Below, piece by piece: positions 1 through 55,628 of a stretch of 64,000 bases of DNA. Numbering within the stretch: position 1 is the first letter of the stretch; each line of letters starts with the position of its first letter. Made by a program: the position numbers and the translations under genes. Source of the stretch: Luteirhabdus pelagi (GTDB lineage: Bacteria > Bacteroidota > Bacteroidia > Flavobacteriales > Flavobacteriaceae); the NCBI RefSeq assembly GCF_016827595.1, contig NZ_JAECMS010000001.1, forward strand, positions 857,655 to 921,654, given 5' to 3'. The notes beneath the pieces are model-generated. The model was not told where the DNA came from and did not search any database. It was given only the letters and a program-made list of their open reading frames with translations.

Positions 1-238
1 CGGCCAATATTTTCTTTAAGAACTCTCTACCAACACCTGATTTCAAAAATCTCTCGCGTTGGATCGCTTCTTCTTTTAAAGCGTAAGCTTCTTGATACAC
101 CAATTTCCAGGGAACATAGCCCTTTGTCGATCTAACCTTACAACTATTATGTTGTCGAACTCTTAGCTCGATATCTCGAGTAAACCCTTTATAGAGCCTC
201 CCATCCACCTCACTTTTAAGAACGTAAACATAATACAT
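1..238 (-). CDS. GIY-YIG nuclease family protein, copy 1 (3' end cut by window edge)
   Basis: This is the first of two identical GIY-YIG genes. The ATG is at 236-238 and the reading frame runs off the window start with about 79 codons visible, identical at every base to the copy at 309-551. The protein starts MYYVYVLKS, then YKGFT, which are the GIY and YIG strands, followed by a conserved Arg (LRVRQH) and a Glu (EEAIQRERF) expected of this endonuclease fold. Stand-alone proteins of about 80 residues like this occur in several copies in many Bacteroidota genomes; their biological substrate is not established. The stop codon is probably only a few bases outside the window, as in copy 2. Confidence 0.85.
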   Translation of the reverse strand, partial: MYYVYVLKSEVDGRLYKGFTRDIELRVRQHNSCKVRSTKGYVPWKLVYQEAYALKEEAIQRERFLKSGVGREFLKKILA

Positions 239-263
239 TCCAATTTATTTCAATTACCGCTGC

Positions 264-313
264 AAATCTGATATTCCCTGCCTGCCGGCAGGCAGGTATC
301 CAGTTGAACTACG
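264..313 (-). pseudogene. tRNA-like 5' fragment interrupted by a 20-bp palindrome (copy A)
   Basis: On the minus strand the order is GTAGTTCAACTGGATA (297-312), the perfect palindrome CCTGCCTGCCGGCAGGCAGG (277-296), then GAATATCAGATTT (264-276). Without the palindrome this reads like a tRNA: TA, D-stem GTTC, D-loop AACTGGATA, D-stem GAAT, A, anticodon-stem TCAGA, TT. From memory it resembles a Bacteroidota tRNA-Arg; that identity is not checked. The sequence then diverges and no 3' half follows, so this is a fragment. The palindrome sits exactly between D-loop and D-stem 3' arm. The TAG stop of the GIY-YIG gene at 309-551 lies inside the fragment. Confidence 0.6.
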
Positions 314-551
314 CGGCCAATATTTTCTTTAAGAACTCTCTACCAACACCTGATTTCAAAAATCTCTCGCGTTGGATCGCTTCTTCTTTTAAAGCGTAAG
401 CTTCTTGATACACCAATTTCCAGGGAACATAGCCCTTTGTCGATCTAACCTTACAACTATTATGTTGTCGAACTCTTAGCTCGATATCTCGAGTAAACCC
501 TTTATAGAGCCTCCCATCCACCTCACTTTTAAGAACGTAAACATAATACAT
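309..551 (-). CDS. GIY-YIG nuclease family protein, copy 2 (complete)
   Basis: Complete 80-residue protein consisting of a single GIY-YIG fold with no accessory DNA-binding domain. Visible elements are YVYVLKS (GIY strand), LYKGFT (YIG strand), the catalytic-type Arg in LRVRQH, and a Glu-rich helix EEAIQRERF. Similar short proteins are often labelled 'excinuclease ABC C subunit-like' but lack all other UvrC domains. The TAG stop is formed by the CGTAGTTC of the adjoining tRNA-like fragment, so the gene end and the tRNA-derived sequence overlap. About 25 bp upstream of the ATG begins GAATATCAGATTT (577-589), followed by a CCTGCC palindrome at 590-609. Whether the nuclease acts on that palindrome is inference only. 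Confidence 0.88.
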   Translation of the reverse strand: MYYVYVLKSEVDGRLYKGFTRDIELRVRQHNSCKVRSTKGYVPWKLVYQEAYALKEEAIQRERFLKSGVGREFLKKILAA

Positions 552-576
552 TCCAATTTATTTCAATTACCGCTGC

Positions 577-622
577 AAATCTGATATTCCCTGCCTGCCG
601 GCAGGCAGGTATCCAGTTGAAC
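577..622 (-). pseudogene. tRNA-like 5' fragment interrupted by a 20-bp palindrome (copy B)
   Basis: This is the second copy of the D-arm fragment: TTCAACTGGATA (610-621), palindrome at 590-609, then GAATATCAGATTT (577-589). Unlike copy A it is not preceded by CGTA; the sequence upstream on the minus strand is GGGCGGGG, so the tRNA resemblance breaks earlier here. It lies directly upstream of GIY-YIG copy 2. Confidence 0.55.
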
Positions 623-669
623 CCCGCCCATTTCTAAAGAAATGTTCGGGATAGTATACGGCCAATAGC

Positions 670-4720: not shown

Positions 4721-5437
4721 TTATTTTTTTGTTGCTACTACTTGGTTTCCGAATGTTAGGTTTACCGTTTTGTAGCTTTTAAGCATCTTATCTTCTTTTG
4801 TTTTTTTATAGAACGCCTTAAAGTTCTGTATCTTCTTTTCAATATCGATTGGTTGCCCAAATACCACTTTTAAATCATGTTTTCTCAGCCGTAAGACTAC
4901 TTTTCCATTCTTCTGCACGTGCAGACCAATAACGCTACTATTCATGAACGCGTCTTTTTCCAGTTCCAAAAGCAGGGGCGTAATTTTGGAGAAATCGTCC
5001 GTCACCGCTCCCGTTACTAAGGGAACTCGTGCGGTGTAAACCGTGGAAAGCGGCATCCTTTTTCCGTCTTCATCAATATAATAATCGGGTGCAGCGGTAA
5101 CTCGGGCAATTGGCCGTCGTTGTTCGATTTTCGCACCCAAGGCGCCATCCACGCTCATAAACACCTGTGCCTCACGAATCATATCGTTTTGGTTCAGGCG
5201 TTCTTCCATCTCTTTCAAAACTACCCTTTCTTTAGGCATGCCCGTAACACTGTCCTGATTTTGTATCAACAATTTATTAACGGTTTCAAGGGTGATAAAA
5301 GGACTATTTTCATCTACGAATGTCACTTCTACATTGGTCAGATTTCGGGTTTTGTTTCTCTTTTTGGCAAAGCCGAACAAAAACACGATCAAACCAATAA
5401 TCAAAATGAACCGTATGTAGACCCAACTATGCTTCAT
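4721..5437 (-). CDS. ftsQ: Cell division protein FtsQ
   Basis: Bitopic divisome protein of 238 residues: a short cytoplasmic N-terminus, one membrane helix at about residues 7-24 (YIRFILIIGLIVFLFGFA), then a periplasmic part with a POTRA-like segment (VTFVDENSPFITLETVNKLL) and a beta domain ending in KTVNLTFGNQVVATKK. Sequence is weakly conserved in the family, so the call rests largely on position between murC and ftsA, topology and length. The start overlaps the 3' end of murC by 11 bp. Start ATG 5435-5437 gives the expected short cytoplasmic tail. Confidence 0.93.
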   Translation of the reverse strand: MKHSWVYIRFILIIGLIVFLFGFAKKRNKTRNLTNVEVTFVDENSPFITLETVNKLLIQNQDSVTGMPKERVVLKEMEERLNQNDMIREAQVFMSVDGALGAKIEQRRPIARVTAAPDYYIDEDGKRMPLSTVYTARVPLVTGAVTDDFSKITPLLLELEKDAFMNSSVIGLHVQKNGKVVLRLRKHDLKVVFGQPIDIEKKIQNFKAFYKKTKEDKMLKSYKTVNLTFGNQVVATKK

Positions 5438-55094: not shown

Positions 55095-55131
55095 AAAAAA
55101 ATCCCGAGTCAATTTACTCGGGATTTTTACT
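55095..55131. terminator. Bidirectional terminator between murF and the tRNA locus
   Basis: AAATCCCGAGT and ACTCGGGATTT form an 11-bp stem with A/T-runs on both sides. It ends murF on the plus strand and the nested tRNA transcript on the minus strand. A near-identical copy is at 55566-55597. Confidence 0.9.
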
Positions 55132-55189
55132 TAAAAGTGGGTCATACTGGATTCGAACCAGTGACTTCTACCCTGTCAAGGTAACACTC

Positions 55190-55222
55190 CCCGCCCGAAC
55201 GTAGCTGTTCGGTACGGGCGGG
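55190..55222. repeat. GC-rich hairpin in the tRNA insertion
   Basis: CCCGCCCGAACG (55190-55201) can pair with the CGGTACGGGCGGG stretch (55210-55222) around AGCTGTT; the stem is imperfect because of an inserted TA. It abuts the D-stem 3' arm of the interrupted tRNA. Confidence 0.7.
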
Positions 55223-55241
55223 TGAACCATGCCTGCCTTTG

Positions 55242-55316
55242 TGAAGTGTATTGGATTCGAACCAATGACCCCCACCCTGTCAAGGTGGTGCTCTGAACCA
55301 ACTGAGCTAACACTCC
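55242..55316 (-). tRNA. tRNA-Val (anticodon GAC), intact, nested inside another tRNA gene
   Basis: A complete 75-nt cloverleaf: acceptor GGAGTGT with ACACTTC (one G-T), D-arm GCTC...GAGC with loop AGTTGGTTCA, anticodon arm CCACC-TTGACAG-GGTGG (anticodon GAC), variable GGGTC, T-arm ATTGG-TTCGAAT-CCAAT, discriminator A; CCA is not encoded. It is flanked by inverted arms GCCTGCC (55231-55237) and GGCAGGC (55328-55334). Confidence 0.93.
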
Positions 55317-55360
55317 AGTTCGTAATAGGCAGGCAACTGAGTTAATGACCCAAGCGCCGA

Positions 55361-55368
55361 CAAAAATA
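55361..55368 (-). promoter_or_regulatory. -7 promoter box of the nested tRNA locus
   Basis: TATTTTTG on the minus strand, 9 bp upstream of the first base of the interrupted tRNA's 5' half. The promoter therefore belongs to the outer tRNA. Confidence 0.65.
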
Positions 55369-55466
55369 CTATTTTTTGGAATGGCAATAAAGTTTTCAAG
55401 GAAGTTATGGAAAAGAAAACTACAGGGATTACTCCCGCCATCCCAGGGCGAGACCGCTCTTGCAAA

Positions 55467-55486
55467 CCTGCCTGCCGCAGGCAAGG
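55467..55486. repeat. CCTGCCTGCC/GCAGGCAAGG palindrome copy
   Basis: A slightly degenerate 20-bp member of the palindrome family seen at 277-296 and 590-609. It lies in the non-coding stretch 55369-55565, which also has GC-rich repeat-like sequence (GGGATTACTCCCGCC, TGCTTCGCAAAC) and no convincing gene. Confidence 0.75.
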
Positions 55487-55565
55487 TACAAATCCCCGCT
55501 TGCTTCGCAAACAGTATTTTTTCATCCCGACTCCTTTCAAAAACGAGTTTTTGACGTTACGGAAT

Positions 55566-55597
55566 AAAAAAATCCCGAGTCAATGACTCGGGATTTG
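55566..55597 (-). terminator. Terminator downstream of the tRNA 3'-end fragment
   Basis: AAATCCCGAGT and ACTCGGGATTT flank a 4-nt loop; a T-run follows on the minus strand. It is nearly the same as 55095-55131, suggesting both tRNA units derive from a duplicated unit. Confidence 0.85.
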
Positions 55598-55606
55598 TGC
55601 TTGAAG

Positions 55607-55628
55607 TGGGCGCGAAGGGATTCGAACC
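55607..55628 (-). pseudogene. tRNA 3'-end fragment, likely att site of the island
   Basis: On the minus strand GG-TTCGAAT-CCCTT-CGCGCCC-A is the T-loop, T-stem 3' arm, acceptor 3' arm and discriminator of a tRNA whose acceptor 5' arm would read GGGCGCG. Upstream the match breaks off inside the T-stem (GTAGG instead of AAGGG) and AT-rich island DNA follows. This is the footprint left when an element integrates into a tRNA 3' end. The tRNA identity cannot be told from this part. Confidence 0.75.

Follow-up and report, generated by a model that had tools for sequence, protein, structure and literature searches.

Integrative islands are known to split transfer RNA (tRNA) genes and to restore them: in the accessible text on Islander, the target tRNA gene is broken and the incoming DNA brings its function (PMC4383910). 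A comparable break is found in a 64,000-nt stretch of the genome of the marine bacterium Luteirhabdus pelagi (assembly GCF_016827595.1, contig NZ_JAECMS010000001.1, positions 857,655 to 921,654; hereafter the window), where a complete tRNA-Val(GAC) gene lies inside the D-loop of another tRNA-Val(GAC) gene. The islands of that text, however, encode an integrase, and the target's sequence is itself restored out of island DNA, whereas the L. pelagi insertion is 106 nt long, carries no enzyme gene and brings a different, complete tRNA with the same anticodon. Neither an integrase nor a duplicated tRNA 3' end, by which tRNA-targeting islands are recognised, was found at the nested locus; its insertions, of 106 and 33 nt, are too small to hold an integrase.

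Other described systems resemble the locus in other respects. Repetitive extragenic palindromes (REPs) and REPINs, with the RAYT family, are like its palindromes in being short, dispersed and variably present between close species; they differ in that no RAYT gene was found beside the L. pelagi palindromes, and a tRNA between the arms is not among the features described in the accessible parts of the papers on them (PMC2817692, PMC3116915, PMC3733652, PMC8266576). The split, permuted and intron-bearing tRNA genes of archaea and algae also have tRNA halves parted by other sequence, and as far as the accessible text goes those halves are rejoined by splicing machinery (PMC3978253, PMC4090602), whereas in L. 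pelagi a tRNA that is itself probably processed lies between the halves and the relatives suggest that the halves are dead. The tRNA-Sec gene in selB is likewise a bacterial tRNA gene inside another gene, but the surrounding gene, according to the accessible part of the source, is protein-coding and not a tRNA gene with a matching anticodon (PMC8124441). We found no described case of a tRNA gene inside a bacterial tRNA gene in the literature searched, which mostly does not cover subscription papers, so that the absence of such a case is unproven.

The L. pelagi locus appears to be a single-copy tRNA gene caught midway through replacement by a foreign one: a congener has the empty site, and other genera have stages that look older. 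An essential tRNA gene may in this way be displaced without passing through a lethal state, and the locus is a natural experiment on whether a bacterial tRNA still functions when its D-arm is interrupted. Because ARAGORN reports the inner gene alone, other genomes may hold similar cases that have gone unnoticed.

Structure of the nested locus

The nested structure is real. An outer 5' half, an outer 3' half and a complete inner tRNA-Val(GAC) are all present on the minus strand where they were first noted, and the nesting put forward in the preliminary description is borne out by reading of the sequence, by ARAGORN and by Rfam. The features of the locus (window 55095-55368) are given below in minus-strand order, with differences counted against genome G001 (Luteirhabdus/'Thermobacterium' salinum), the sole same-genus genome compared.

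55361..55368, minus: TATTTTTG, a promoter-like -7 box belonging to the resident gene; it precedes the outer 5' half by 9 nt and is identical in G001
55334..55351, minus: 5' half of the outer (resident) tRNA-Val(GAC), with the acceptor 5' strand, the D-stem 5' strand and the start of the D-loop; 0/18 differences from G001
55328..55335, minus: left arm TGCCTGCC of the class A palindrome, its first two bases common with the outer D-loop
55228..55333, minus: insertion (i), 106 nt, in the D-loop: rest of arm TGCCTGCC, spacer, inner tRNA, AAA, arm GGCAGGCA and TG; alignment gap against G001
55241..55316, minus: inner complete tRNA-Val(GAC), GGAGTGT type; ARAGORN, Rfam 65.6 bits
55230..55237, minus: right arm GGCAGGCA of the class A palindrome
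55223..55227, minus: GTTCA, leftover bases of the original outer D-loop, aligned to G001 between both gaps
55190..55222, minus: insertion (ii), 33 nt: CCCGCCCGTACCGAAC..GTTCGGGCGGG, a palindrome of class B that follows the last D-loop base and precedes the D-stem 3' strand; alignment gap
55138..55189, minus: 3' half of the outer (resident) tRNA-Val(GAC) with A73 (A at 55138); 0/51 differences from G001 over 55139-55189
55095..55128, minus: terminator-like 13-bp hairpin and T-run 3' of the outer 3' half, seen by eye; resembles that of G001

Read from 55351 to 55138, the minus strand thus carries the 18-nt 5' half, arm TGCCTGCC, an 11-nt spacer, the inner tRNA, AAA, arm GGCAGGCA, TG, GTTCA, the 33-nt palindrome and the outer 3' half. 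The point of insertion (i) is ambiguous by two bases; the exact pattern match lies at contig positions 912884-912989. At this locus ARAGORN calls the inner gene alone, which forms a complete cloverleaf with a GAC anticodon and stands well clear of the Rfam tRNA gathering score of 29. The outer gene is matched by Rfam in its 3' part alone, at 21.5 bits and so under the gathering score, and no continuous gene is found above the cut-off.

The promoter-like box, which we take to be a -7 box from the consensus of the phylum, and the terminator-like hairpin are both common to G001 and enclose the whole nested arrangement. It had been proposed that the outer stems pair across the gap and that the locus is a single transcript; the pairing holds in the sequence and the single transcript is a fair reading of it, with the qualification that the 13-bp hairpin is absent from the output of a mechanical terminator scan. 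A group I or group II intron was rejected as the content of the interruption, no intron RNA family being among the 10 matches up to an E-value of 5 from 4227 families.

An uninterrupted gene at the same place in a congener

The preliminary description suggested looking for an uninterrupted copy in a related genome, and G001 has one: a continuous tRNA-Val(GAC) in the corresponding position, between shared flanks. By position, the MurF locus of G001 agrees with the contig of Thermobacterium salinum TK19130 (L076), a name that is placed in the genus Luteirhabdus. Aligned to about 68 kb of G001, the window shows two clean gaps at the gene, one of 33 nt (55190-55222) and one of 106 nt (55228-55333). 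The 144-nt interruption described earlier is therefore present, with its inner tRNA and its palindromes, as two insertions and not as one. Because the gaps fall on either side of it, GTTCA is original D-loop sequence. Since the empty site sits at the same place in G001, the nested arrangement is not a matter of chance. A pattern search for GGGTCATTAACTCAGTTG with any base but G after it matched 1 of 397 family genomes, that of L. pelagi.

Type and genomic context of the inner gene

The L. pelagi genome (G000) gives 37 tRNA matches, each with an ARAGORN call, and its valine genes are the inner GAC gene and one TAC gene, with no others. A looser search adds the outer 3' part and three weaker matches (C22:847352, C11:55997 and C11:615416); these three have no ARAGORN gene, and none of them reads as Val(GAC). 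Across the 37 matches and the looser search, the rest of the genome holds no second complete tRNA-Val(GAC) and no intact outer-type gene, the latter being what the preliminary description would have read as a sign of a pseudogene.

The inner gene is also of a different sequence type from the resident. The resident type, GGGNNAT..TTAACTCAG, is found in G001 and in the nearest rows of our MurF comparison that bear a Val(GAC), whereas the inner gene starts with GGAGTGT..TTAGCTCAG. A tRNA in G265, a genome of another genus, is identical to it at 76/76 nt, and one in G258 is 99% identical; matches at an E-value of 1e-20 or better were obtained in 19 of 299 family genomes, L. pelagi's included. In other Flavobacteriaceae genera the GGAGTGT type is the Val(GAC) beside murF. 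Because the inner gene is the sole complete Val(GAC) and its type adjoins murF in other genera, we take it to be the working gene of the genome.

We compared 83 distinct Val(GAC) contexts, gathered by searches with these tRNAs and with MurF and so not a census. The GGAGTGT type accounts for 19 of them, 4 of which were classed as nested, compared with 0 of the 64 others (the classes resting partly on reading). Palindrome arms within 30 nt of the tRNA were found in 4/19 GGAGTGT contexts and 0/66 others, a comparison in which alone L246-L248 are counted. On a MurF tree of 47 rows, the GGAGTGT type, carried by 11 rows, requires at least 10 changes, a figure that is approximate because this is a quick tree with 11 of its 44 inner branches open. 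The rows are 38 of 80 fetched MurF loci (the other 42 were dropped for having no Val(GAC) in the stretch), 8 added loci, of which 7 carry the GGAGTGT type, and finally the window itself; G290 was left out.

Probable displacement of the resident gene

The two insertions, the empty site in the congener, the sole complete Val(GAC), its foreign type and the worn outer remnants in other lineages lead us to a reading that we consider likely: a nested gene displacement, in which a foreign-type tRNA-Val(GAC) in the resident D-loop took over the resident's job. The foreign-type gene, flanked on each side by one arm of a small palindrome that may have had a part in the insertion, would have come into the resident D-loop, and the second, 33-nt palindrome is a separate insertion into the same loop. 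With just 17 nt of spacer and arm before it, the inner gene probably uses the resident promoter and is transcribed as far as the resident terminator, as one transcript. RNase P, 3' processing and CCA addition would then free the inner tRNA, which would read GUC and GUU codons in place of the broken gene, and the outer halves would be left-over RNA that decays over time.

Related arrangements, in several of which the outer gene is more worn, were found in other lineages. In G265 the identical inner tRNA adjoins tRNA-Val(TAC) and murF, with CATTAACCTAATTGCCTGCC before it and a worn outer 3' half after it; the left half plus arm is matched by 0/5000 shuffles and the right half by 8/5000, and the left arm TTGCCTGCC stands at the same D-loop place as in L. 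pelagi. G147 has a GGAGTGT tRNA between worn halves of the GGGATAT type, with 0/5000 shuffles on each side, and GGGATAT is the type of the sister Maribacter rows. In L139, a Croceitalea metagenome-assembled genome, the GGAGTGT tRNA is followed by TAA, a GGCAGGCAGG arm and a near-complete outer 3' half (0/5000 shuffles). In G290 the tRNA lies between TGCCTGCTGCC and GGCAGGCA, after tRNA-Val(TAC); at that position the congener G023 carries a gene of the resident type. Each of the stretches fetched from G265, G290 and L139 contains one class A half-site, which means that the arms seen in them do not result from a high density of palindromes. These four look like older stages, and the worn remains outside the genus suggest that an essential gene has been swapped in this way more than once.

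Several observations weigh against this reading. The 5' half of G265 without the arm is not above shuffles (34/200 reach it), the 5' side of L139 is without any outer-half signal (4665/5000), and the outer halves of G290 are not significant (152, 753 and 4172 of 5000). In G264 the broken resident gene lies beside the GGAGTGT gene and not around it, which looks like displacement in tandem rather than nested. By 3' similarity alone, 4/64 other-type contexts are flagged too; three of these (L057, L120 and L234) have T-arm fragments downstream and one (L074) has an intact Val(TAC) neighbour, and all four were classed as not nested by reading. Finally, the outer bases of L. pelagi are unchanged from G001 (0/74) despite differences at 39/157 MurF fourfold sites, which could mean constraint and not a recent event; the L. 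pelagi transcript folds better than its shuffles (z -3.85); and the outer pieces are predicted to pair (-61.5 kcal/mol, against -3.4 and -36.0 kcal/mol apart).

The unchanged outer bases can be set against the flanks. The spacer upstream of the nested gene (window 55352-55628) differs from G001 at 10/277 sites, a much smaller share than that of the MurF fourfold sites, and the 45-bp downstream spacer differs at 6. Because the upstream flank itself differs at so few sites, the count of 0/74 is indecisive for the age of the insertion: a recent insertion could account for it, and constraint would too.

In G264 (L238), directly upstream of the GGAGTGT-type tRNA-Val(GAC) at 5181, the broken resident tRNA-Val has palindrome-like inserts in both its D-loop and its T-loop.

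How the insertion may have arrived

The route by which the inner gene reached L. pelagi is a separate question from its function. It is quite possible, if somewhat short of an even chance in our view, that the insertion has a single origin outside the species, the G265 lineage for instance, and came to L. pelagi by homologous recombination through the conserved outer halves, as an exchange of the whole locus and not as a self-inserting element. The inner tRNA identical to that of G265 and the TTGCCTGCC arm at the same D-loop place speak for such an exchange, as do outer halves and flanks conserved enough for recombination. Against it, the spacers of L. pelagi and G265 differ and the halves in G265 are worn; moreover, the outer remnants of G147 match the type of its own sisters, which indicates separate events. 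Such an exchange concerns route and not function, and it is compatible with nested displacement.

More tentatively, a unit of about 106 bp, arm-tRNA-Val(GAC)-arm, might be a minimal mobile element that spreads between Flavobacteriaceae genera by inserting into the D-loop of resident tRNA-Val(GAC) genes, an idea that we regard as rather unlikely as it stands. Such a unit would borrow the resident promoter and terminator and would insert by itself or through an enzyme; as it would supply the function that it destroys, each insertion would be survivable and the resident would then decay. No enzyme gene is attached to the 106-nt unit. The exact framed arm-tRNA-arm pattern was found in 1 of 397 family genomes, that of L. 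pelagi, with a pattern that misses variants such as G290. Carriers of the framed tRNA were also sought: no viral contig has the exact pattern, and 43 plasmid and 56 phage records match partially, none covering 80% of the query among the matches listed.

Fate of the outer halves

The alternative to displacement that concerns function is a two-piece tRNA: after excision of the inner tRNA, the outer halves would stay paired through the acceptor stem, the D-stem and a TGCCTGCC/GGCAGGCA helix and act, ligated or not, as a second tRNA-Val. The intact outer bases, the folding of the transcript and the predicted pairing of the outer pieces given above all favour it. That predicted pairing, however, swaps the true D-stem for another pairing, the full double cloverleaf (-70.6 kcal/mol) is not the predicted minimum (-85.1 kcal/mol), and the 33-nt palindrome is located at the D-stem. 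The relatives, too, do not support the working split tRNA that the preliminary description had considered: both halves are worn in G265 and G147, where the inner gene is kept, and in L139 the 3' half alone was found. Disruption of the stems in relatives, named there as a mark of a pseudogene, is thus seen outside the genus, and the unchanged outer bases in this genome are neutral on the point. Nothing demands a two-piece tRNA, because a complete Val(GAC) is present, and we think it very improbable. The outer gene is most probably dead, given that the inner gene shows no wear in the places where the outer halves do.

An assembly artefact joining two separate tRNA-Val loci through repeated palindromes is hardly credible: the palindromes do recur in the genome, but no repeat exceeds 33 nt, the contig spans 1.06 Mb, the inner tRNA has no second place in the genome at matching identity, and similar junctions and arrangements occur in other assemblies, which makes misassembly unlikely.

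The two classes of palindrome

The class A palindrome, TGCCTGCC..GGCAGGCA, occurs at 16 places in L. pelagi and 6 in G001. For class B a strict pattern gave no match in the one genome searched (0/1) and a looser one was then used; its core, CCGCCCGTACCGAAC, with up to one mismatch occurs at 18 places in L. pelagi and 3 in G001, the copy at the locus included, and the copies printed are mostly closed by GTTCGGGCGGG past a loop of variable length. Both classes are thus dispersed over many places in the genome, as REPs and REPINs are, in copy numbers far below those of typical REPs. Class A-type copies near window positions 55467 and 19645 differ in presence between L. pelagi and G001. We infer that both classes are small mobile palindromes. 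No Y1 transposase is flanked by the same palindromes: each genome has one Y1_Tnp match, and the 3.3 kb around each match holds no TGCCTGCC or CCGCCCG palindrome and one lone GGCAGG.

Class A copies stand at the D-loop/D-stem boundary of tRNA-Arg fragments (at the start of the window and in G229) and of broken tRNA-Asn copies (in G133). The pattern TAGCTCAG followed by CTGCCTGCC has 5 matches in 4/299 genomes, 3 of the 5 in tRNA copies (two in G229, one in G133); at the other two, in G142 and G168, ARAGORN sees no tRNA. These matches are suggestive of a preference for tRNA D-loops but are no test of it, and the pattern itself starts with a tRNA motif.

Palindrome-bearing tRNA fragments were noted at several places. 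At window 1-650 and in L200, repeated units combine a 5' fragment of tRNA-Arg, in which a class A palindrome sits where D-loop and D-stem meet, with a small open reading frame that by eye resembles a GIY-YIG nuclease; the array ends at an intact tRNA-Arg(TCG), and G229 (L241) has an array resembling it. On the minus strand of G133 (L242), the two broken tRNA-Asn copies with class A palindromes lie beside intact tRNA-Asn genes. Downstream of tRNA-Val(GAC) in G305 (L239), L120 and L057 there are 3' fragments of tRNAs, made up of the T-arm and the acceptor strand and with a short palindrome in the T-loop; G305 has two such copies in tandem.

Other tRNA remnants and a possible neighbouring island

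Elsewhere in the L. pelagi genome, two weak tRNA-like matches (31 and 29 bits; L043, G000:C3, 3250-3324 and 3373-3449) lie beside tRNA-Ala and tRNA-Ile, one of them with an odd four-base anticodon call, and G001 has one match resembling them. The weak match at G000:C22:847352-847412 (L249; 17.3 bits) is a tRNA-like remnant in which no 5' part can be recognised; judging by the anticodon region it may be Leu.

Beside the nested locus, at window 55606-55628, 23 nt remain from the 3' end of a tRNA-Val(TAC). The intact tRNA-Val(TAC) lies about 26 kb off (G000:C11:939617) and adjoins a 405-aa open reading frame that by eye resembles a tyrosine integrase; this 3' piece and the distant intact gene look like an ordinary island in tRNA-Val(TAC).
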